Shown one piece after another: positions 1,245 through 63,620 of a DNA stretch of 64,000 bases. The stretch is from Clostridium sp. AM22-11AC. Lineage in GTDB: Bacteria > Bacillota > Clostridia > Lachnospirales > Lachnospiraceae. The notes under the pieces are model-generated. The model searched no databases and was not told the origin of the DNA. It saw nothing but the letters and a program-made list of their open reading frames with translations. The stretch covers positions 24,191-88,190 of the forward strand of contig NZ_QUCM01000011.1 of the NCBI RefSeq assembly GCF_003473545.1, in the 5' to 3' direction. The first letter of the stretch is position 1; each line of letters begins with the position of its first letter. A program made the position numbers and the translations under genes.

Positions 1245-1292
1245 AAAAAAAATGAGTGTCAACAAAGCTTCATCTGTTGACACTCATTTTTT
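1245..1292. terminator. Bidirectional rho-independent terminator
   Basis: A perfect stem (AATGAGTGTCAACA with TGTTGACACTCATT) is flanked by A-runs on the left and T-runs on the right. It can therefore end the MarR transcript on the plus strand and the amino acid ABC operon on the minus strand. Its right edge overlaps the stop codon of the ATPase gene at 1291. Confidence 0.85.
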
Positions 1293-2040
1293 ACAGCACC
1301 TTACTTAAGAAAGACTTCAGGCGCTCATTTTTAGGATTTGAGAAGAACTCTTCCGGTGCGGCTTCTTCCATGAAGTAACCGCCGTCCATGAACATGACTC
1401 TGGTAGCAACTTCTCTTGCGAAGCCCATTTCGTGGGTTACCACTACCATGGTCATTTTTTCAGCGGCCAGGTCACGCATTACGTTTAATACCTCGCCTAC
1501 CATTTCCGGGTCGAGAGCGGAAGTCGGCTCATCGAAGAGCATTACGTCTGGCTTCATGCAGAGGGCTCTTACAATGGCGATACGCTGTTTCTGACCACCG
1601 GAAAGCTGGCTTGGATATGCATGGGCTCTGTCAGCAAGGCCGACACGCTCTAAAAGGCGCATAGCCTCTGCTTCTGCCTCCTGCTGGCTCTTGCCCTGAA
1701 GCTTCATAGGCGCCAGTGTCAGGTTTTTCATGATATCCATATGCGGGAACAGGTTGAACTGCTGGAATACCATTCCCATTTTCTGACGGTGTTTATCAAT
1801 ATCGGTTTTCGGATCTGTAATATCGGTACCTTCAAAATAGATATGGCCTTTTGTAGGCTCTTCCAGACGGTTTAAGCAGCGTAAGAAGGTACTTTTACCG
1901 GAACCGGATGGTCCTACTACAAATACTACATCACCTTTGTAGATATCCACTGTGATATCTTTTAATACTTCGATGTTTCCAAAGCTCTTTCCAAGGTTCT
2001 GCACCTGGATCAGAGGCTCTCTTTTTTCATTACCGCTCAC
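1291..2040 (-). CDS. Polar amino acid ABC transporter, ATP-binding protein
   Basis: A 249-residue ATPase of the GlnQ/HisP/ArtM type that powers import of a polar amino acid. Visible motifs are Walker A GPSGSGKS (about residues 43-50), Q-loop QQFNLF, signature LSGGQ, Walker B VMLFDEP and H-loop VTHEMGFA. The start is GTG at 2040 with GGAGG about 10 bases upstream. The gene overlaps the permease gene by 11 bases, so the two are translationally coupled. It is the last gene of a three-gene operon (binding protein, permease, ATPase) ending at the terminator at 1245-1292. Substrate is not decided by the sequence. Confidence 0.93.
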
Positions 2041-2722
2041 TCTGACGCAGCCTCCTTTCCAGAATCTGGATCAGTTTTGTGAAGATCATAACAATAACCA
2101 GATAAACCAGTGCAACTGCGATCAATGGCATAAACGCACTGTAGGTTCTGCTTCGGATGATATCGCCGCCTTTGGTAAGATCCTGGATTGCGATGTAACC
2201 GGAAACAGAGGTCTCTTTTAACAGAGAAATGAACTCGTTACACAGAGTTGGCAGTACGGTTTTGAATGCCTGAGGCATGATCACGTACCACATGGTCTGA
2301 GCGTAGTTAAAGCCAAGGCTTCGTCCTGCTTCCATCTGTCCCGGATCAATTGACATGATACCGCTTCGGAAAATTTCTGCCACATAAGCGCCGGAGTTGA
2401 TGCCGAATGCCATGATCGCTACCGGTACTTTATCAATACGTGTGCTTCCAAATACAACAAAATAGATGATCAGCAGCTGAACAACTACAGGTGTACCGCG
2501 GATAACTGTCAGATAGATCTTGCACAGAATATTCAGCAGTTTTAAGTTTCCTGTTTTATCGTGGGTAGAACGGATCATACCTACGATAAATCCCAGAACA
2601 ATGCCCATCATGCAGGCAAAGAAGGTTATGATCAGTGTGGTCTTAAGACCATCTGCAATATAATGCCACCGATCATCTGAAATAAAATTCAGATAAAATG
2701 CATCTGTAAAATTTTTCCACAT
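2030..2722 (-). CDS. Polar amino acid ABC transporter, permease
   Basis: A 230-residue inner-membrane permease of the HisM/GlnP family. An N-terminal segment ([21 protein letters not shown]) opens a five-helix core. The EAA-type loop ([28 protein letters not shown]) that docks on the ATPase is clear. The start is set at ATG 2722 because AAAGGA lies 8 bases upstream; an in-frame ATG at 2731 is too close to that site. The single permease gene implies a homodimeric channel. It is followed by an overlapping ATPase gene and preceded by the binding-protein gene after 47 bases. Confidence 0.92.
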
Positions 2723-2769
2723 GCCGATCATCCTTTTCTCTCTAAATACTTGTTTCTAATGACTATTGA

Positions 2770-3609
2770 TTACTCTGCCTTGATGTACTTAGCTACGATC
2801 TCGTCCAGAGTTCCGTTGTCCTTTAAGGTCTCTAATGCGCCGTTTACTTTGTCAAGCAGCTCGGTGTTGCCCTTCTTTACAGCAATTGCATACTCTTCTA
2901 CAGTAAATGCTTCGTCTAAGATCTTTAAGCCTTCTGTTTCAGATACGAAAGTCTTTGCTGGCTCACCATCGATAACAACTGCATCGATCTTGCCCTGGCT
3001 TAATGCCTGAACAGCTTCAAATCCCTTGTTGTAACGCTCTACAGTGGTTCCGTCTGCTTCCAGATCAGATACATAAATGTCACCGGTAGTTCCTAACTGA
3101 ACACCAACGGTAACTCCCTTTAAGTCATCTGGACCAGCGATCTCGCTGTCTTCCTTAACGATGATCATCTGGGAAGCAGTTGCATAAGTATCAGAGAAAT
3201 CTACAGATGCCTTACGGTCTTCAGTTACAGTCATACCAGCTAAAGCCATATCAGCCTTACCGGATACGATCTCTGGGATAATGGAGTCAAATGCGATATC
3301 TTCAATCTCTAATTCCATACCAAGCTCATCAGCAATAGCCTGTGCGATCTCAGCGTCGATACCTACGATCTTGTCTCCGTCATGGAACTCGTATGGTGGG
3401 AACTCAGCGTTGGTTGCCATAACCAGTTTGCCGCCTGCTGCTTCCTTTGACTCAGCTGCTGTACTCTCTGCTGCAGTGGATTCTTCTTTTGCTGCTGCAG
3501 TTGTATCTGCTGCTGCAGCTGCTGTTGTCTCTTTTGCGGAACCGCCGCATGCGGTTAAGGATGCTGCCATAAGAGCAGCCATTGTCAGTGCGATTACTCT
3601 TTTTTTCAT
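2770..3609 (-). CDS. Polar amino acid ABC transporter, substrate-binding lipoprotein
   Basis: A 279-residue family 3 solute-binding lipoprotein. It starts at ATG 3609 behind AGAGGAG (an in-frame ATG at 3639 has no such site). The signal peptide ends in lipobox LTAC followed by GGS. A low-complexity Ala/Thr/Glu linker (residues about 24-62) precedes the two-lobed domain (KLVMATNAEFPPYEFHDGDKIVGIDAEIAQAIA, and the hinge region GTTGDIYVSDL). Families with this fold bind His, Gln, Arg, Lys or cystine; specificity cannot be assigned. It is the first gene of the importer operon. Confidence 0.92.
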   Translation of the reverse strand: MKKRVIALTMAALMAASLTACGGSAKETTAAAAADTTAAAKEESTAAESTAAESKEAAGGKLVMATNAEFPPYEFHDGDKIVGIDAEIAQAIADELGMELEIEDIAFDSIIPEIVSGKADMALAGMTVTEDRKASVDFSDTYATASQMIIVKEDSEIAGPDDLKGVTVGVQLGTTGDIYVSDLEADGTTVERYNKGFEAVQALSQGKIDAVVIDGEPAKTFVSETEGLKILDEAFTVEEYAIAVKKGNTELLDKVNGALETLKDNGTLDEIVAKYIKAE

Positions 3610-3683
3610 AATGTTTTCTCCTCTTGCATGTTTATGCATATTATTATGTTTGCTCCCTCTATGGTGGGAAAGCTGTCTGTTCT

Positions 3684-55489: not shown

Positions 55490-55650
55490 TGGATTTTATG
55501 ATACCAGGGCCAAAGATACTATGTTCAAAAAATATTATGTTCAAAAATACTATGTTCAAAAGGTCAGAAAAACCTCCTGCAAGCAAGTTTGCAGGAGGTT
55601 TTTTAGACTTTAGCCCCGCCAAAAAACATGGGTAAATGGCTGTGATCTGG
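55490..55650. repeat. Dispersed repeat related to copy A, with a triple tandem repeat
   Basis: Downstream of glgP. It has GATACCAGGG, three tandem copies of ATAYTATGTTCAAAA (55516-55531, 55532-55546, 55547-55561), TCAAAAGGTC and CCCGCCAAAAAACATG, in the same order as in the element at 25716-25935. The glgP terminator is embedded in it. Confidence 0.6.
55569..55604. terminator. Terminator of glgP, usable on both strands
   Basis: AAAACCTCCTGCAA (55569-55582) with TTGCAGGAGGTTTT (55589-55602), followed by TT; A-run on the other side. Confidence 0.88.
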
Positions 55651-55651
55651 C

Positions 55652-58600
55652 TCATTTCATATTATTTTGCAATTCACGGATCAATTCTTCCATTACGATC
55701 GGCTTGGACATAAATCCATCCATACCACATTTCAGCGCTTTCTTTCTGTCTTCGTCAAAAGCATTGGCAGTCATTGCAAGGATCCTGATCTTTGCCAGTG
55801 CCGGATCCTCCAGTGCCCGGATCTGCTCCGTGGCCTCATATCCGTTCATTACAGGCATCTGAATATCCATAAGCACCAGATCATAAGTGCCTGGTGCTGA
55901 ATTCTTCACTTTCTCCACTGCCACTGCTCCATTTTCCGCTATATCAACCAGGAATCCATATTGTTTAAGAATCTCCTCAGCAATTTCACGGTTTAACTCA
56001 TTGTCTTCCACAAGCAGTATACATCTGCCTCTGAAATCGGAACCTGTTTCCGGAAGGATACAGTTCTCTGCCCCGGTCTGCTTCTGGCCGATAGCAGTCA
56101 TCAGTGTCTCTCTGATATCTGACATAAACAGCGGTTTTGCGCAAAATGCATTTACTCCTGCTGCTCTGGCTTCTACTTCAATATCTGACCAGTCATAAGC
56201 AGTCAGGATAATGATCGGCGTATCATCGCCCAGACTGCGGATCTGACGGGTGACTTCAATGCCATTCATATCCGGCAGACGCCAGTCAATGATATAAGCA
56301 TGGAATGCATCCCCCAGTTCCATAGACTGCCGCGCACGAAGAACGGCCTCCTTACCGGAAAGTGTCCATTCTGAACGCATTCCAACCTTTACAAGCATCT
56401 TTGTCACACTGTCACAGGTATTAAAATCATCATCTACAACCAATGCCTTAAGGTCTTCCAGCTCTGCGATCTTCTCTATGCTGCGCTGCTCTGACTGGAT
56501 CCGCAATGGCAGACGGACTATGAATTCAGTTCCTTTGCCCTGCTCTGTCCGAACTTCAATCGTTCCCCCCATCATATCCACAATATTCTTGGTAATTGCC
56601 ATGCCAAGTCCTGTCCCCTGAGTCCTGCTGACTGTGGAAGTCCGCTCCCGTTCAAAAGGAGAAAAGATCCTCTGTATAAATTCCTGGCTCATACCGATCC
56701 CGCTATCCTTTACCCGGATCTCATACAGCCCACTGCCCTTTTTCGTCCCTGGAAACTGCTTCAGCCGGACAGAAACGGTTCCCCCTGCAGGCGTAAATTT
56801 GATCGCATTAGACAAAAGATTCAGCAGCACCTGGTTCAGTCTGGTTTTATCACAATAAACATCCTCATCTGTAACATCCATGGCATCCATATAAAGCTCC
56901 AGCTGCTTCGCATAGATATGTCCACTGATGATCGTCTTCAGATCATGAAGCATATCAGACAGACTGACCTCGGTTTCTTCCAGATGGATCTTTCCGCTCT
57001 CAATACGGCTCATATCCAGTACATCATTGATCAGTGAAAGCAGATGGTTGCTGGATGAAAGGATCTTTCCCAGATAATCCCTGACTTTTTCCTTATTATC
57101 AATGTTGCTTACAGCCAGTGTAGTAAAACCGATAACAGCATTCATTGGCGTACGGATATCATGGGACATGTTGGAAAGGAATGTACTCTTTGCCCGGTTG
57201 GCAGTTTCCGCAGCGCGGACTGCCTCATAAAGGGCCTGGTTCATTTTCTTATCAACGGTACGGTCAGACATAACTAGGATATATTTCTTTTTTCCGTTTA
57301 CCTCACTGCCCATTGCAATAATATGAAACCAGCGTTGTTCCCCTGTTTTCTGGTGAACATATTCAAAATCCCATTCCTGCTGCTCATTTACCTGGATCTC
57401 TTTCAGATAATTCTTCTTTGGATCTTCACAATCTTCGGAATGCAGTTTTCCCAAGACGCTAATATCCTTTTGGATCTGTTCTACTGTAATGCCCAGCAGT
57501 TTTTCCACATTGGGACTTACATAATCTGCCTTATATGTTTTTGCATCCAGCATCAGAAAAACGTCATCTACACTCATGGACAGCTTTTGAAACAGCTCAT
57601 CCCTATAGAGGATCTCAACATCCCTTCTTTTCAGGCTTATCCTGTTCTTTTGGAGGATCAGTTCAATAATAAAGACAGCAAAACCGAACACTATGGTTCC
57701 TCCAAGGAGCATAGTCCGAAGCTGCAGGGAATTCATGCTGGCATTGACTATATCAGCCTGGACAAGTCCCAGAAATATCCAGTCCTGGCATTCCGAGCTT
57801 CCATAAACCAGATAGTAATTACTTCCATCCAGATTTACCAGCATCGTATCTGTACGTCTCTCTTTAAATTTCTCTGAAAGTTCAAGGATCTCCTTTTCGG
57901 AAATATTAGAATGCTCTCTTAAAACACCAAAGAAATTATACACGGTTCCCCATGCCTCAAAGGAATGATCGATGACAACACGGCCATCTGGATGAACCAC
58001 ATAACTCTTGGCATTTCCATTAAAAGCAGAGATATCCAATACATCTACTATATCAGCGTTTTCATATGCAATGGCAATTGCATCATATTCAAAACCCTGA
58101 TAGCTTCCATGAGACTGGGGGCTGGCAAATACAAGCATCTGTTGTTTTCCGGGAACTACTGCATTTGTTATGATATCCTCCCCCAGCGTGATCTTATCTT
58201 CAAGATTTTCCTGTAATCCAAGATACCCGGCTTCACCTGTTAACATCTTATAGTTGCCGTCAGCTGACAGAAAATAGAAATATAAAAAACCGGCCTCTTC
58301 CTGGGCTTTATCTATATAATCACGGATCTCGCTTTCATCAGAAACCTTCTTCAGATACTCCCCCCACATATGAAGATAGGTCAGATTTTTATTTGCCAGT
58401 TCATTTAACACATTATTTGACTGATGAAAAACCTCCGTCAAATGGGAAGCACTTTCCTCATAAACCGTTTTCGACACAAACTTAAAATACCGGAAAGCAG
58501 TCAAAACGATCCCAATGAAGAAAACAATAAAGACAGCTATCCTTAATCGTTTTCCCATGAAAAAGTTCTCTCTGCCTGTATTACGATTTCCAATATTCAT
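55652..58600 (-). CDS. Hybrid sensor histidine kinase with PAS and two receiver domains
   Basis: A 982-residue kinase. Two membrane segments (about 15-40 and 300-325) flank an extracytoplasmic PDC/Cache-like domain. PAS (about 335-460) is followed by HisKA with NMSHDIRTPMNAVIGF, HATPase (NLLSNAIKFTPAGG, GTGLGMAITKNIVDMMGG) and two receivers. REC1 is YIIDWRLPDMNG with TAYDW; REC2 is LLVEDNELN, VLMDIQMPVMNG and MTANAFDEDRKK. No DNA-binding output. ATG 58600 is chosen behind GAGGTGAGAA; a GTG at 58609 overlaps that site. Last gene of the sensory operon. Confidence 0.92.
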   Translation of the reverse strand: MNIGNRNTGRENFFMGKRLRIAVFIVFFIGIVLTAFRYFKFVSKTVYEESASHLTEVFHQSNNVLNELANKNLTYLHMWGEYLKKVSDESEIRDYIDKAQEEAGFLYFYFLSADGNYKMLTGEAGYLGLQENLEDKITLGEDIITNAVVPGKQQMLVFASPQSHGSYQGFEYDAIAIAYENADIVDVLDISAFNGNAKSYVVHPDGRVVIDHSFEAWGTVYNFFGVLREHSNISEKEILELSEKFKERRTDTMLVNLDGSNYYLVYGSSECQDWIFLGLVQADIVNASMNSLQLRTMLLGGTIVFGFAVFIIELILQKNRISLKRRDVEILYRDELFQKLSMSVDDVFLMLDAKTYKADYVSPNVEKLLGITVEQIQKDISVLGKLHSEDCEDPKKNYLKEIQVNEQQEWDFEYVHQKTGEQRWFHIIAMGSEVNGKKKYILVMSDRTVDKKMNQALYEAVRAAETANRAKSTFLSNMSHDIRTPMNAVIGFTTLAVSNIDNKEKVRDYLGKILSSSNHLLSLINDVLDMSRIESGKIHLEETEVSLSDMLHDLKTIISGHIYAKQLELYMDAMDVTDEDVYCDKTRLNQVLLNLLSNAIKFTPAGGTVSVRLKQFPGTKKGSGLYEIRVKDSGIGMSQEFIQRIFSPFERERTSTVSRTQGTGLGMAITKNIVDMMGGTIEVRTEQGKGTEFIVRLPLRIQSEQRSIEKIAELEDLKALVVDDDFNTCDSVTKMLVKVGMRSEWTLSGKEAVLRARQSMELGDAFHAYIIDWRLPDMNGIEVTRQIRSLGDDTPIIILTAYDWSDIEVEARAAGVNAFCAKPLFMSDIRETLMTAIGQKQTGAENCILPETGSDFRGRCILLVEDNELNREIAEEILKQYGFLVDIAENGAVAVEKVKNSAPGTYDLVLMDIQMPVMNGYEATEQIRALEDPALAKIRILAMTANAFDEDRKKALKCGMDGFMSKPIVMEELIRELQNNMK

Positions 58601-58605
58601 TCTTC

Positions 58606-60456
58606 TCACCTCAGAGTAATGTAGTCTTCAGGCTCTGCAAGAATAACATTACCCTCCGAAATATGTCCTGTCCAGGTATCTTTCACAGAAATATCTTCAC
58701 TGTCAAATACAATATTTTTACCTGCAGGATCAGCTTCCATGTGTCGCGGTATTGCCAGACAGGTTACAGTAAACCTGTCATTGTCCCCAACTGCTTTTCC
58801 ATTCTTTGTAACTTTATCCAGCGTATAGCCATCGTCATTTTCCCTAACCTTCACAGAAATGCCGCTGACCACAGGCAGAGAGCCCCTGTTAAAGGGAATG
58901 AGACCTCCCTCATAGCCTTCTACAAAGTTTCTGACTGTTTCTTTCAGTTCAGACCCGCTCATTGTACATTTGTAAGCCCAAAGACCATTTGGCATGATCA
59001 TTCTGCCTGCCATTTTTTCACTGTATTTTGCCTTCAGTACATTTCCTGTAAAGCTGTTTCCTGATGCGATCAGCACATCTGTGCCATAAATACCTCGCAA
59101 AGTGTTTGCCATAACAGAATACGCTTCATTCCCCCCGTTGGTATGAAAGATATTGGAATATGTTTTCTGTGGCTCCAGCACTATATTTTCAGAAATAGGG
59201 CTTTCCTCAAGAAGCTGGGTATTAAATGACTGATAAGCCTGCACTGCATTGTATTCTCCTGATATCATTTTGGAAACCACGTCCTTAGAAATGGCAAAAA
59301 AGTCATTTGACGCAATACGGATATACATATGGTTTTCTTCGATCACAGGCTTTACATCCTTCAGATATTCTGTAAGATGGATATCCACATCCTGACTGTA
59401 GCTTAATATATCCTGGCCCTCATAAACGATCTGGTTCTGAGCATCCTCTGAAAGCATTGTATTCAACACCTTCATTGCCTTCTGCCGGCGTGTTTCATCC
59501 TGTGTCAGATCACGGTTTAATGCCACCTGGAAATAGGGTGTAGTCATCAGCCACTTTTCGCCGTTCTGTTGAAAAAATGGCAGAAATGTTGTGTTGATGC
59601 CCTGATCCTGAAATATCTTTACACCGGAAGAGCTGCCAAAATACATGGCAACCTTACCGTTTTTGTACAGTTCAATCACATCATCATAATTCATATCCAG
59701 ATCATCCCGGCTCAATCCTGTATCCTTTATGAATCGCTCCATACGTTCAAAAGCCTCCGGCCAGACTGTACTGTCCAGGCCTTCTCTCTTTGTATTTTCC
59801 GGATTACTGTAGATGGTACGCCATTTGCGTCCGGCTGCAGAAGAAAGCTCTGATGCAGACAGTCCCTGCAGCGTTTCCATACATGTATAATCATAATAAT
59901 AGTCTGCCGCAAAACCACGGATACCTGCTTTTTTAAATTCCCTGCAAGCAGAAACAAAGCTTTCGTAATCCGTTGGCAAAGGAATATCATACTTTTCAAA
60001 AAGATCCCTGTTCACTACAAAGCCATGGGCATCTGCACACACAGGAAGCCAGTTTACGCTGCCATCCTGGTTCGTAAAACTGTTAATGTATGTATTATAG
60101 ACAGCACCTGCCTCATTGGTTGTGGAAAGATCCATCAGGCTGTCTTTAAGTGGGCTTGCATCATGGAGTGAAAACCGGCAGCAGGTTATAATATCCGGCA
60201 ATCCACCGTTTTCCTTCAGAAACCGGTAGAAATCCAGGTCATTATTACCTACCACAAATTCAATATTAATATCCGGAAGCTGTTTCTGGATGTATGGTGC
60301 ATATTTTTCATACAGCTGCGTGGACCACAAATATACTGTGATCGTTTCTGCATCTTCTTTTTCTGCACTCTTTCTGCCACAGCCTGACAGAAGTGATATA
60401 ACTGTCACCATCACAAAAAGTACAGAAAACAACCTATTCCATTTTTTCTTTTTCAT
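58606..60456 (-). CDS. Solute-binding lipoprotein fused to a 5'-nucleotidase C-terminal-like domain
   Basis: A 616-residue lipoprotein (lipobox LLSGC). Residues about 35-425 are a family 1 (sugar/oligosaccharide type) binding domain: ITVYLWSTQLYEKYAPYIQKQLP, LPVCADAHGFVVNRDLFEKYDIPLPTDYESF, YKNGKVAMYFGSSS. Residues about 432-616 resemble the 5'-nucleotidase C-terminal domain: NEAYSVMANTLRGIYGTDVL, the MSGSELKETVRNFVEG segment equivalent to the TGxxL motif, and VVSGISVKVRENDDGYTL. The metallophosphatase domain is absent. It overlaps the upstream kinase gene by 23 bases and lies 5 bases before the next kinase gene. No permease or ATPase is present. Confidence 0.82.
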   Translation of the reverse strand: MKKKKWNRLFSVLFVMVTVISLLSGCGRKSAEKEDAETITVYLWSTQLYEKYAPYIQKQLPDINIEFVVGNNDLDFYRFLKENGGLPDIITCCRFSLHDASPLKDSLMDLSTTNEAGAVYNTYINSFTNQDGSVNWLPVCADAHGFVVNRDLFEKYDIPLPTDYESFVSACREFKKAGIRGFAADYYYDYTCMETLQGLSASELSSAAGRKWRTIYSNPENTKREGLDSTVWPEAFERMERFIKDTGLSRDDLDMNYDDVIELYKNGKVAMYFGSSSGVKIFQDQGINTTFLPFFQQNGEKWLMTTPYFQVALNRDLTQDETRRQKAMKVLNTMLSEDAQNQIVYEGQDILSYSQDVDIHLTEYLKDVKPVIEENHMYIRIASNDFFAISKDVVSKMISGEYNAVQAYQSFNTQLLEESPISENIVLEPQKTYSNIFHTNGGNEAYSVMANTLRGIYGTDVLIASGNSFTGNVLKAKYSEKMAGRMIMPNGLWAYKCTMSGSELKETVRNFVEGYEGGLIPFNRGSLPVVSGISVKVRENDDGYTLDKVTKNGKAVGDNDRFTVTCLAIPRHMEADPAGKNIVFDSEDISVKDTWTGHISEGNVILAEPEDYITLR

Positions 60457-62644
60457 TACGGATCCCCCAAAAACTATTTTCCACCAATCTGCTGATCACT
60501 TTTACCAGTAATTTTACATCAACGGGTTTTGCAATATGTTCATCCATCCCTGCTTCTTTTGCTTTCAGCCTATCCTCGGTAAAGGCATTTGCTGTCATTG
60601 CGATGATGGGGACCACCTTTGCATCTTTCCTGTCCAGAGACCGGATCATCTTTGCTGCTTCATAGCCATTCATGACCGGCATCATAATATCCATAAGAAT
60701 GACATCAAATTCACCGGATCTGCTTTTTTCGAATATCTCAACTGCTTCCTGTCCATTCCATGCTTTCGTCACCTGGGCGCCCTCATTCTGGAGCAAAAAT
60801 TCAGCAATTTCCATATTCAGCTCATTATCTTCTACCAGAAGGATATTCAGATCCTTTATGGATCTTTCCGATACATTCTTCTGTTCTTTATGTTTATCCG
60901 CATCCAGGTCTATTTTAAATGGGACCCGGAGCACAAAGGTCGTACCTTTGTCCCTCTCACTTTCAAAGGTGATCGTTCCACCCATTTTTTCTGCCAGGTT
61001 CTTGGTGATGGTCATCCCTAAACCTGTTCCCCCAAATTTAGAAGCTCCGCCCTTTTGCTCCCTGGCAAAAGATTCAAAAACATGCTCTTTAAATCCGCTG
61101 CTCATGCCAATACCTGTATCACGGCATGTAAATTCCAGCATTGTACTTTCTGTACTGTGTGACGGGATTTCTTTACAGCTTAGATCTATGTTTCCATAAT
61201 CCTTATTGTATTTCACAGCATTACTCAGGATATTCATCAGCATGCGCTTCAGATAAAGGGAGCTTCCCAGTAATTTCCGGTGCTCGATCTCTATTGTCTG
61301 TTCAACCTTTATTCCCCTTTCATCTGCCTGTCTGCTAACCAGGTCCATCACATCATTTATTGTCTTATAAACATCAAAAGGCTTTTCTTCCAGCAAAATT
61401 TCTCCTGATTCCAGCTTGCTCATATCAAGAACTTCATTGATCAGCTCTAAAAGAATATTTGAAGCTTCACGGATCTTTTTCCTGCAATCTGCCTGTTTCT
61501 GCAGATCATTGCTGTAATGATCCCCTACATCGACCATTCCGCAAATCCCATTGATCGGTGTACGGATATCATGACTCATCCTCTGGAGAAATTCTGTCTT
61601 CGCCCGATTGGCCGCCTCTGCCTTTTTAGCTTCTTCCAGAAGTTTTCTCTGGTACTCCTGTTCTCTTTCCATTTCTATTTTAATGCTGTTTGCCCTGGAT
61701 TTTTTAAGAAGCAGCCATACCAGTGTCACCACCACCATATAAATAAACATGACCATTATCACATTTTGCGGCAACGTATGAAACACAGTACGCTCCGGAA
61801 TATATGCATAAATATAATAATCCCTTTGTTTCAGCATCAGTCCATAATAGAAATCGTCACCCACATTCAAATGCATTAAATGTCTGCTGTCTGCATTTTT
61901 CTTTAAAGCCTGGATCACCTCCTGTTTTTTCGCATCCTGACCAATAAGGCTGGTATCATTGGAAGCAATGACCACACCATTATCCACGATCATGATCGTT
62001 CCGTCACTAAAGGTCTGATATCCATTTAACAGGCTCTGTATGGTAAGCTTATAATTTTGCAAAAACTCAGCAGATGTATAATAATAAGTAATTACAATAC
62101 CAGGTTCATCTCTCCTGGCACATGCAGCTACATCTATATGCCCTCCATCATCACAGCTGATCTGCTGGGAATATACCTTTTCCTCATGATCTGCAATATC
62201 CAGTATTGTTTCTTTATTAACATGTTCCTGTATTTTTGCAAAACGGCTTCTATCCACACTCCCGCTCTCACTATATTCACCTACAATATTTCCATTTGCA
62301 TCCAGTACCATAGCACCTGTCAGCCATAATTGGTCTGTACATTCTTCTAAGAGCTGATTGTTAAATTCTTTTCCGTCCTGTGTTTTTGCATCTATGACAA
62401 CACTGACCTGTCTTGCACTGTCGATCGCACGTATCAGGCATTTACATTCTGACACCTCATTATAACGTGTATACACAGAACATTGTACCTTCACATAATT
62501 TACTATATTCAAAAGCCGGGATTCCTCATAGGCTTTACTAAAATAGAAAAAATACAGAACTGTAAAACAGGTCAGACACATACCCAGGACTGCACTGACA
62601 GTCCAGAATTTCATTTTTATCCATTCCTGTTTATTCTTCTCCAA
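60434..62644 (-). CDS. Hybrid sensor histidine kinase with one receiver domain
   Basis: A 736-residue kinase. Membrane segments at about 15-35 and 292-316 enclose a Cache-like external domain (VVIDAKTQDGKEFNNQLLEECTDQLWLTGAMVLDANG). A coiled-coil linker, HisKA with RMSHDIRTPINGICGM, HATPase (NILSNAVKYNKDYG, GTGLGMTITKNLAEKMGG) and a receiver (LLVEDNELN, VILMDIMMPVMNG, MTANAF, KPVDV) follow. The start is TTG 62644, 9 bases after GGAGGT; ATG 62614 is the alternative. It overlaps the preceding binding-protein gene by 14 bases and the next by 23. No DNA-binding output domain. Confidence 0.9.
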   Translation of the reverse strand: MEKNKQEWIKMKFWTVSAVLGMCLTCFTVLYFFYFSKAYEESRLLNIVNYVKVQCSVYTRYNEVSECKCLIRAIDSARQVSVVIDAKTQDGKEFNNQLLEECTDQLWLTGAMVLDANGNIVGEYSESGSVDRSRFAKIQEHVNKETILDIADHEEKVYSQQISCDDGGHIDVAACARRDEPGIVITYYYTSAEFLQNYKLTIQSLLNGYQTFSDGTIMIVDNGVVIASNDTSLIGQDAKKQEVIQALKKNADSRHLMHLNVGDDFYYGLMLKQRDYYIYAYIPERTVFHTLPQNVIMVMFIYMVVVTLVWLLLKKSRANSIKIEMEREQEYQRKLLEEAKKAEAANRAKTEFLQRMSHDIRTPINGICGMVDVGDHYSNDLQKQADCRKKIREASNILLELINEVLDMSKLESGEILLEEKPFDVYKTINDVMDLVSRQADERGIKVEQTIEIEHRKLLGSSLYLKRMLMNILSNAVKYNKDYGNIDLSCKEIPSHSTESTMLEFTCRDTGIGMSSGFKEHVFESFAREQKGGASKFGGTGLGMTITKNLAEKMGGTITFESERDKGTTFVLRVPFKIDLDADKHKEQKNVSERSIKDLNILLVEDNELNMEIAEFLLQNEGAQVTKAWNGQEAVEIFEKSRSGEFDVILMDIMMPVMNGYEAAKMIRSLDRKDAKVVPIIAMTANAFTEDRLKAKEAGMDEHIAKPVDVKLLVKVISRLVENSFWGIRNEKEKME

Positions 62645-63461
62645 TTTTATCTACCTCCAGATATTTCTCCGGATCATCAAGATACTTCCCAATGATTTTT
62701 GCAGCTGTTCCATCTTCTTTCATGTCAGCTAATGTCTGTTCTAATTTCTGGCAAATACCTCTGGTGTCATCCTTTGCAAATGCAACTCCGAGCCCCACTG
62801 TCATAAGTGGTTCATCCAGGATACGCAGTTCCATATTATAATCCTTCATATATTGGATAATGGATTCCTCATGGGCTCCCACTGCATCAACATAGCCTTT
62901 TCCTAAAAAAGTATAGATCAATTCCCTGTTTTCCAGACTGATCAGATTCCCCAGCTTAGGAATCCTTTCATCCGTCCGGCGCAGAAATATCTCTTCCGGT
63001 TTTGTTGTTGACTGGACAGCAAGTTTTTTTCCCTCCAGATCACTTAATTTATAGATATCACTGTTAGGATTGACTGCAACAACCTGCCTGCTTATCATAT
63101 ACGGACCTGCCCACTGATAATCATCCAGTCGTCCTTTCATGGAAAAACAGCCCATAATACAGTCTATTTCTCCATTTTCTAACAGTTTCTTTTTCTGTTC
63201 CCAGCTTATGGGAATGATCTCTATCTTATATCCCATTCTTCCAAATGCTTCCGTCGCCAGATCAACATCTATTCCCGTCGGCATACCATCCTCATTTAGA
63301 AAATTATAGGGAGGATAATTATCACTTCCGATTTTTATAACAGGATTTTCCGTTGTGTCAGTTATTTTATCTGTCTTATTGCATCCTGTGAGAGCTGTCA
63401 TTAATACTGTCATTAATATAAGAAATATCAATCCAGCCGTAATTTTTTTCCCTTTTTTCAC
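62631..63461 (-). CDS. Family 3 solute-binding lipoprotein (polar amino acid type), sensory operon
   Basis: A 276-residue lipoprotein. It starts at GTG 63461, 8 bases after GAGG; an in-frame TTG at 63572 lacks a site and would begin inside the leader. Signal peptide with lipobox LTGC (Cys 27), then a family 3 binding domain (VIKIGSDNYPPYNFLNEDGMPTGIDVDLATEAFGRMGY, IDCIMGCFSMKGRLDDYQWAGPYM, LEGKKLAVQSTTKPEE). First gene of the operon with two hybrid kinases. Without transporter genes nearby, it probably presents an amino-acid-like ligand to a kinase. Confidence 0.86.
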   Translation of the reverse strand: MKKGKKITAGLIFLILMTVLMTALTGCNKTDKITDTTENPVIKIGSDNYPPYNFLNEDGMPTGIDVDLATEAFGRMGYKIEIIPISWEQKKKLLENGEIDCIMGCFSMKGRLDDYQWAGPYMISRQVVAVNPNSDIYKLSDLEGKKLAVQSTTKPEEIFLRRTDERIPKLGNLISLENRELIYTFLGKGYVDAVGAHEESIIQYMKDYNMELRILDEPLMTVGLGVAFAKDDTRGICQKLEQTLADMKEDGTAAKIIGKYLDDPEKYLEVDKIGEE

Positions 63462-63591: not shown

Positions 63592-63620
63592 ATTATACGC
63601 CCACGCCCCTCCGTACACAA
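63592..63620 (-). promoter_or_regulatory. Promoter of the sensory operon
   Basis: Minus-strand TTGTGT (63615-63620), 17-base spacer, perfect TATAAT (63592-63597), giving a leader of about 125 bases. Confidence 0.6.

Follow-up and report, generated by a model that had tools for sequence, protein, structure and literature searches.

Four genes lie head to tail on the minus strand (63461-55652) of the window, by which we mean the whole 64,000 nt stretch of Clostridium sp. AM22-11AC DNA analyzed here: a family 3 binding lipoprotein (SBP3), a hybrid histidine kinase (HK1), a family 1 binding lipoprotein (SBP1) and a second hybrid kinase (HK2) (Table 1). Gene linkage and sequence divergence speak for two cognate pairs of the known kind, one binding protein with one kinase, and not for one receptor with two inputs. 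We hold it to be rather probable that these separable pairs signal through a shared stand-alone HPt to HD-GYP enzymes, and so to c-di-GMP turnover.

Table 1. Features of the sensory operon and its flanks in the window
Feature	Position	Strand	Description
SBP3	62631..63461	-	family 3 (amino-acid type) binding lipoprotein; GTG start 63461; lipobox LTGC
HK1	60434..62644	-	hybrid histidine kinase; TTG start 62644; two TM, HisKA-HATPase, one receiver
SBP1	58606..60456	-	family 1 (sugar type) binding lipoprotein with putative C-terminal 5'-nucleotidase-C domain
HK2	55652..58609	-	hybrid histidine kinase; GTG 58609, alternative ATG 58600; PAS, HisKA-HATPase, two receivers
Candidate sigma-70 type promoter	63592..63620	-	TTGTGT-17-TATAAT, poor -35
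Terminator-like hairpin	55568..55604		A run and T run at its sides; HK2 and the glycogen phosphorylase gene converge on it

The preliminary description of this DNA gave the four genes with overlaps of 14 bases (SBP3/HK1) and 23 bases (HK1/SBP1), and we recovered four minus-strand open reading frames with exactly these positions and overlaps. Its 5-base gap between SBP1 and HK2 is correct if HK2 starts at the ATG, but the GTG start, which creates a 4-base overlap, is likelier because the longest SBP1 and HK2 reading frames overlap by 4 bases in all ten orthologous loci. Both sensors are probably co-transcribed. The single shared promoter that had been claimed is unproven: a promoter motif scan of the window's upstream region returned one candidate, with a poor -35, and a matching site was found in none of the ten orthologous upstream regions, four of which have other promoter candidates and six none. 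The hairpin and T run downstream, read by eye from the sequence and absent from the scan output for the window, could mark the end of the operon.

Each lipoprotein has a signal segment and a lipobox cysteine. SBP3 matches PF00497 (SBP_bac_3, E 1e-25), and the solved chains closest to it are mostly amino-acid binding proteins. The domain order is HisKA-HATPase-REC in HK1 and PAS-HisKA-HATPase-REC-REC in HK2. Each kinase has two hydrophobic segments enclosing about 250 residues and retains the phosphorylatable His and Asp, and a domain profile search found no Hpt domain in either. Cache_WalK was detected in all ten HK1 sensor regions at E values up to 0.1 (best 3.6e-4), the window's HK1 being a weak match (20.7 bits, under the cut-off of 27). 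At E values up to 0.1, dCache_1 was detected in 8 of 13 HK2-type outside domains (best 2.7e-10), including that of the window, which is again a weak match (17.2 bits, under the cut-off of 45). Profile searches of solved structures with the outside domains of HK1 and HK2 gave nothing credible.

The N-terminal part of SBP1 matches PF01547/PF13416 (SBP_bac_1/8). Its structure model is poor (mean pLDDT 51.9); the top hit of a Foldseek search with that model was a family 1 binding protein. Judged by profile matches, the extra C-terminal domain is of 5'-nucleotidase origin: PF02872 (5_nucleotid_C) was found in 23 of 24 homologous C-terminal domains at E values up to 0.01 (best 5.8e-12), with the window's SBP1 a weak match (18.2 bits, under the gathering cut-off of 23.6). 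In 5'-nucleotidases of the UshA family the C domain carries a GGIR motif, and in SBP1, as aligned by profile to 3ivd with a weak E of 0.0054, this stretch is replaced. We rejected SBP1 as a nucleotidase because the domain profile search found no metallophosphatase (catalytic) domain in it. The nucleotide-like ligand suggested earlier is not supported: the extra domain derives from 5'-nucleotidases, but this origin does not in itself show nucleotide binding. Lacking its catalytic partner, the 5'-nucleotidase-C domain is probably an additional binding or kinase-docking domain. If we read the fusion correctly, it would represent a 5'-nucleotidase C domain used as a sensory module. We found no earlier description of this fusion, of the four-gene operon or of the HPt family considered below among the top-ranked, mostly non-subscription results of a literature search.

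To what extent the genes travel in pairs was assessed in 299 genomes, for which the best few candidates per genome were scored (4 for SBP1 and 3 to 15 for the others, with 7 or 8 for the HK1 sensor and SBP3). An SBP3 homologue lies immediately upstream of all 12 HK1-sensor matches found, down to 27% identity, and of 30 places with an SBP1-type gene, 28 have a kinase gene adjoining it, which argues for two separable pairs. Viewed from SBP3, 12 of its 18 places adjoin an HK1-type sensor and 6 have no adjoining match. HK2-type kinases are also found next to SBP1 homologues that lack the extra domain (L097, L106). As far as gene order goes, both pairs show the conserved adjacency of binding-protein-dependent (three-component) sensor kinases. 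The idea of a dedicated sensory operon, which had been put forward at the outset, therefore gains from the co-occurrence of binding proteins and kinases across genomes and from the absence of a linked ABC transporter.

The four-gene order, which the preliminary description had proposed to seek in other genomes, is unbroken in seven of the ten orthologous loci and broken by one gene in an eighth; because of this conservation the arrangement is, on the evidence of gene order, more than chance. That order would also suit one two-input receptor complex in which both lipoproteins feed both kinases, as would a locus with two SBP1-type genes ahead of one kinase (L096). We nevertheless rejected the earlier suggestion that two ligand classes meet in a novel receptor with two binding proteins, and consider such a complex very improbable, because the pairs occur apart and diverge separately. 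SBP1-HK2 is present without SBP3-HK1 in L006 and L092, three of the 12 HK1-sensor matches (G026, G182, G196) are in genomes without an SBP1 match, and the pairs are rearranged in L005. The SBP3 of the window is 75% identical to its nine orthologues, which are 92% identical among themselves, and for the HK1 outside domain the values are 52% and 85%. The corresponding values are 87% and 91% for the SBP1 binding domain, and 77% and 85% for the HK2 outside domain. By these identities, SBP3 and the HK1 outside domain of the window are both outliers, SBP1 and the HK2 outside domain much less so. The outside domains of HK1 and HK2 also show no profile similarity to each other. Mirror-tree comparisons without the window were uninformative for SBP3 versus the HK1 outside domain (r 0.09) and gave r 0.72, a weak result with nine loci, for the SBP1 extra domain versus the HK2 outside domain. 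With two cognate pairs, any integration of the two inputs would take place downstream, at the HPt.

There is no permease, ATPase or output regulator in the operon, and ABC-ATPase motifs occur in no reading frame of the ten orthologous loci (L001-L010), so we rejected a transporter operon. The original claim of a system with no transporter thus withstood the search for linked permease and ATPase genes. Of the further loci, L104 has one reading frame with ABC-ATPase motifs, 2 kb past the kinase. The 20 flanking genes scanned include a PF06541 membrane protein ('putative ABC-transporter type IV') directly after HK2 in L001, a Mem_trans permease in L010 and a ZIP protein in L009. The lipoproteins could instead scavenge for ABC transporters whose genes lie at other sites, with the kinases sensing something else directly via their Cache-like domains. 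In favor of this, most of the solved structures nearest to the lipoproteins belong to transporter binding proteins, and it is common for a Cache domain to bind a ligand on its own. A transporter whose ATPase is encoded elsewhere has a precedent in CuaABC, as described in PMC10384115. We regard scavenging as quite unlikely, given the linkage of the binding-protein genes to kinases, the lack of ABC-ATPase motifs noted above and the fact that SBP3 and the HK1 outside domain have diverged together.

We propose that membrane-anchored SBP3 would capture an amino-acid-like nutrient and present it to the outside domain of HK1, while membrane-anchored SBP1 would capture a sugar- or oligosaccharide-like nutrient and present it to the double-Cache-like domain of HK2. 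Each kinase would pass phosphate from its His to its own receiver and then, most likely, via a stand-alone HPt encoded elsewhere to REC-HD-GYP and GGDEF-REC-HD-GYP enzymes. A separate HPt is proposed because HK1 and HK2 have none and the operon has no output regulator. Nutrient signals from several hybrid kinases would in this way converge on c-di-GMP turnover.

A profile search found no HPt or HD-GYP gene in the 64-kb window, and we infer that both are encoded elsewhere in the same genome. A stand-alone HPt and a REC-HD-GYP relative are present in all nine orthologue genomes, with 1-3 HPt matches per genome; 5 of the 12 HPt genes have no recognised relay gene as a neighbour. A REC-HD-GYP gene with intact HDIGK and HHE..GYP motifs, presumably encoding an active enzyme, lies inside or beside the operon in two of the ten orthologous loci (L003, L005), and none is beside it in the other eight. 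In some genomes an HPt gene stands in a row with sensor genes. A. hallii has the gene row fusion kinase, fusion kinase, HPt, REC-HD-GYP, and C. fessum the row SBP1-type gene, kinase, fusion kinase, HPt. The C. fessum row recurs in B. schinkii, but with a broken HPt. Among the matches listed for the 299 genomes, 150 places each for HPt and REC-HD-GYP, a REC-HD-GYP match lies within 3 kb of 60 of the HPt places and none within that distance of the other 90. HPt and REC-HD-GYP are found together in 111 of the 299 genomes (Fisher 6e-25), and HPt in 19 of 19 genomes with SBP1 versus 146 of 280 others (Fisher 7.6e-6), both tests treating genomes as independent of kinship. Being so common without SBP1, the HPt is, by its distribution, not specific to these sensors; 4 of the 19 SBP1 genomes have no REC-HD-GYP match at E 1e-60. 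The guess of an HPt or c-di-GMP output, made before any of these searches, gains support from the linked genes in relatives.

The same two pairs could, directly or via an HPt, deliver phosphate to a DNA-binding regulator with its gene at another site (Spo0A, or an orphan of the AraC or LytTR type), the output then being transcription or sporulation. The orphan receivers that the preliminary description had suggested looking for do exist in a relative. A Blautia genome (G003) has 11 hybrid kinases, in an inventory that leaves out two HATPase matches below the cut-off, 1 HPt and 6 orphan receivers: two HD-GYP enzymes, three DNA-binding proteins (Spo0A, AraC type, LytTR type) and one receiver-only protein. 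Its sole HPt is, however, beside a GGDEF-REC-HD-GYP gene and >1 Mb from Spo0A on the contig. This position, the HPt clustering with REC-HD-GYP genes and the presence in two genomes of a REC-HD-GYP gene within the operon or adjoining it make a DNA-binding output unlikely, though less so than scavenging. Verified sporulation kinases of Firmicutes, according to PMC6136694, are not located with other two-component genes, whereas HK1 and HK2 adjoin each other.

On balance we favor the relay to HD-GYP enzymes. Whether it extends to a many-to-one relay in gut Lachnospiraceae, in which about a dozen hybrid kinases, several of them served by dedicated lipoprotein receptors (including the sugar-type SBP1 fusion with its re-used 5'-nucleotidase domain), would feed one HPt and through it (GGDEF-)REC-HD-GYP enzymes and c-di-GMP, seems to us evenly balanced. 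Among gut commensals, Blautia and its relatives are common, and such a relay, if true, would link nutrients outside the cell to c-di-GMP by a defined path open to testing, in which one HPt is the node.

Several known systems resemble parts of this scheme. EvgS/BvgS-type kinases have SBP_3 domains fused to a hybrid kinase, so that the same sensor fold feeds a hybrid kinase, although the binding protein of the window is a separate lipoprotein. In five loci (L002, L003, L005, L009, L092), fused SBP3-kinase genes come directly after those of the operon. In LuxP-LuxQ-LuxU, a binding protein is paired with a hybrid kinase that has a Cache/PAS-like outside domain and no HPt; LuxU is one stand-alone HPt common to several hybrid kinases, and the output is the sigma-54 regulator LuxO. 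HK1 and HK2 are likewise hybrid kinases without HPt, and their relatives have few stand-alone HPts. Unlike the Lux system, the operon has two pairs, its lipoproteins are SBP_bac_1 and SBP_bac_3 types in a Gram-positive family and not of the LuxP family, and the output linked in relatives is REC-HD-GYP. Three receptors feed one cascade in Vibrio harveyi quorum sensing, according to the account in PMC5394107. The proposed route behind the sensors resembles that of RpfC-RpfG in Xanthomonas, where a hybrid kinase feeds an HD-GYP phosphodiesterase (PMC5391125); RpfC includes an HPt domain and a fatty acid activates it, whereas here the HPt would be separate and sensing would rely on binding proteins. 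The Borrelia pair Hk1-Rrp1 combines a hybrid kinase, SBP_3-type sensing and c-di-GMP output (PMC4013479); Hk1 itself carries the sensor domains and the HPt, and the cyclase Rrp1 is encoded next door. A parallel for the proposed lipoprotein and kinase contact is CuaD-CuaS-CuaR of Ruminiclostridium (PMC10384115), in which a lipoprotein binds the outside domain of the kinase encoded beside it, and the same paper cites XylFII-LytS of Clostridium as a comparable pair. CuaS differs from HK1 and HK2 in not being hybrid, and it shares its locus with the gene of a DNA-binding regulator, next to transporter genes.

The two binding lipoproteins and two hybrid histidine kinases of the operon form two pairs and not one quartet: the family 3 lipoprotein (SBP3) goes with the one-receiver kinase (HK1), and the family 1 lipoprotein with an extra C-terminal domain (SBP1) goes with the two-receiver kinase (HK2). 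By hydropathy, each lipoprotein has one signal segment and each kinase two hydrophobic segments. The phosphorylatable histidine and aspartate are retained throughout, in the two kinases as in the three receivers. No stand-alone phosphotransfer protein (HPt), DNA-binding or other output gene lies within the operon. The preliminary description had the genes overlapping or nearly abutting, and the overlaps are as it gave them, except at the SBP1/HK2 junction; there a 4-base overlap is probable, because the longest ORFs overlap likewise in all ten orthologous loci. The window holds a single weak promoter candidate, and no matching site occurs in the ten orthologous upstream regions.

Features of the window (operon genes from window ORFs, domains from Pfam)
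Feature	Position	Strand	Content
Operon	63461 to 55652	minus	SBP3, HK1, SBP1, HK2
SBP3		minus	SBP_bac_3
HK1		minus	HisKA-HATPase-REC
SBP1		minus	SBP_bac_1/8, weak C-terminal 5_nucleotid_C match
HK2		minus	PAS-HisKA-HATPase-REC-REC
Promoter candidate	63620-63592		
Transporter-like genes	1291-3639		linked ABC-ATPase, permease-like and SBP3 genes

Scanning genome contigs with SBP1 gave ten orthologous loci (L001-L010) in nine Lachnospiraceae genomes: three Blautia, Coprococcus, Eubacterium ramulus, Fusicatenibacter (two loci), Clostridium fessum, Anaerobutyricum and Hominifimenecus. Their SBP1 proteins are 80-84% identical across the whole protein, and HK2 directly follows SBP1 in all ten. The four-gene order, which was to be sought in other genomes, is uninterrupted in seven of the ten. 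Elsewhere one gene separates HK1 from SBP1 (L003), the two pairs are in reversed order (L005), or SBP1-HK2 stands alone (L006). Two more orthologous loci have all four genes (L093) or lack SBP3-HK1 (L092). Homologues in the protein database run into the thousands (at least 7983 scored; one listed cluster represents 9159 sequences). In L002, L003, L005, L009 and L092, the operon genes are immediately followed by genes for SBP3-kinase fusions. Upstream of the lone pair of L006 are a TOTE conflict-system primase/helicase gene and a serine-recombinase gene (L006:3442-8167); this pair was possibly moved by a mobile element.

The pairing extends beyond the orthologues. When the HK1 outside domain was searched in 299 genomes of the family (E 1e-20), an SBP3 homologue was immediately upstream at all 12 matches, down to 27% identity, and three genomes (G026, G182 and G196) have this sensor and an SBP3 homologue yet no SBP1 match. 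Conversely, an HK1-type sensor is beside 12 of the 18 SBP3 places found at E 1e-50 in the same genomes; the other six are five homologues at 35-47% identity and one 74% fragment. SBP1 homologues occur at 30 places in 19 of the 299 genomes (E 1e-40), and a histidine kinase gene adjoins 28 of them (two of these kinases are frame-broken). Of the remaining places, L103 is at a contig end; at L095 (6879-13634), the SBP1, which includes the extra domain, adjoins no kinase, and a HisKA_7TM-GAF-GGDEF-HD protein is encoded two ORFs on, a further hint of c-di-GMP output. The members of a pair also diverge together. Both SBP3 (74.6% to nine orthologues vs 92.2% among the nine) and the HK1 outside domain (51.7% vs 85.0%) are outliers in the window, the SBP1 binding domain (87.0% vs 91.2%) and HK2 outside domain (76.6% vs 85.0%) far less so. 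Two loci (L096:4550-8333 and L100:6363-10079) have tandem SBP1-like lipoprotein genes ahead of one hybrid kinase, possibly a receptor duplication serving one kinase.

Profile comparison found no similarity between the two kinase outside domains. That of HK2 looks like a double Cache domain by sequence: with an E limit of 0.1, dCache_1 matched eight of the 13 homologous regions (best 2.7e-10), the window match being below cut-off. HK1 gave weak Cache matches only. The last 190 residues of SBP1 correspond to PF02872 (5_nucleotid_C), which matched all but one of 24 homologous domains with E no higher than 0.01 (best 5.8e-12); the window protein scored 18.2 bits, under the gathering score of 23.6 bits. 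Pfam found no metallophosphatase domain in SBP1, and its alignment to the nucleotidase 3ivd, a weak one, shows the GGIR motif of the 5'-nucleotidase C domain replaced. We take the extra domain as a putative re-used specificity domain without catalysis. Two SBP1 homologues (L097 and L106) lack it, yet have an adjoining HK2-type kinase. Among metagenome SBP1 proteins, the C-terminal half (P0001, P0005 and P0014) or N-terminal half (P0028) is near-identical to that of the window and the other half divergent, reflecting either within-gene recombination or chimeric assembly.

The claim that the operon has no transporter held up: a search for ABC-ATPase motifs gave no ORF in any of the loci L001-L010 and a single one in L104, lying 2 kb beyond the kinase. 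The gene that follows HK2 in L001 encodes a membrane protein of a family named 'putative ABC-transporter type IV'. The window's transporter-like genes, which look like an ordinary amino-acid-type transporter, contrast with the sensory SBP3.

The relatives point to candidate outputs. The gene inserted in L003 and that preceding SBP1 in L005 encode REC-HD-GYP proteins (putative c-di-GMP enzymes) with intact HDIGK and HHE..GYP motifs. A stand-alone HPt is encoded in each of the nine orthologue genomes, as is a REC-HD-GYP relative (one or more, E 1e-118 or better). The HPts belong to a single family; across 11 aligned proteins the histidine of HTxKG is invariant. In nine enzymes, about 650-725 aa long, REC and HD-GYP occur together with an intact GGDEF motif (Pfam run on three). 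Among 12 HPt genes of the nine genomes (leaving out a thirteenth match, 24.9 bits), four adjoin a GGDEF-REC-HD-GYP gene and three lie downstream of hybrid kinases that are either fused or linked to SBP1: in A. hallii, where REC-HD-GYP comes after HPt, in C. fessum, and in B. schinkii, where HPt is broken and REC-HD-GYP reduced to a remnant. No recognised relay gene is beside the other five (one judged on 1.5 kb flanks alone). At L073 (G002:C42:78400-79006), downstream of an SBP1-type sensor set, an HPt with internal stops is next to a REC-HD-GYP remnant; the same genome has another HPt without stops.

Across the 299 genomes, with few best candidates scored per genome for HPt, enzyme and SBP1, HPt occurs in 165 (E 1e-10), the REC-HD-GYP enzyme in 125 (E 1e-60) and both in 111 (Fisher 6e-25, kinship ignored). 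Of the HPt places listed (150, the limit for each list), 60 have a listed enzyme match within 3 kb (41 of them within 300 bases), and 90 have none among the matches listed. HPt is present in 19 of 19 SBP1 genomes vs 146 of 280 others at E 1e-10 (7.6e-6, kinship ignored), and in 16 of 19 vs 46 of 280 at E 1e-30 (1.2e-9, kinship ignored); the enzyme is in 15 of 19 (E 1e-60).

One genome was inventoried, that of L003 (G003, Blautia sp. Marseille-P3087, main contig 3.3 Mb). Besides one HPt gene it has 11 hybrid kinases, in none of which the domain scan showed an HPt. Of its 30 free receivers, 24 (one a fragment) are within 4 kb of a same-strand non-hybrid kinase; the six orphans are REC-HD-GYP, GGDEF-REC-HD-GYP (which adjoins the HPt), Spo0A, AraC-type, LytTR-type and receiver-only proteins. 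In this one genome, the layout is the many-to-one arrangement expected with a shared HPt, and it narrows the targets and picks no single one. L113 (G003:C2:1644000-1657000) has three successive hybrid kinases; a GGDEF domain lies inside one of them, and CHASE is present in one.

We conclude that the operon encodes two tandem binding-protein-dependent hybrid kinases, whose signal most likely reaches c-di-GMP enzymes by way of a shared HPt; for the window, the putative unlinked half (HPt and enzymes) is argued from relatives alone. The front half would work like LuxP-LuxQ-LuxU and the back half like RpfG. The operon nevertheless belongs to neither group: it differs from Lux both in its binding-protein family and in its linked output, and its kinases lack the HPt that RpfC carries. 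Among characterised clostridial systems, CuaDSR comes nearest to the sensor half; for binding-protein sensing that leads to c-di-GMP, the nearest is Borrelia Hk1-Rrp1.
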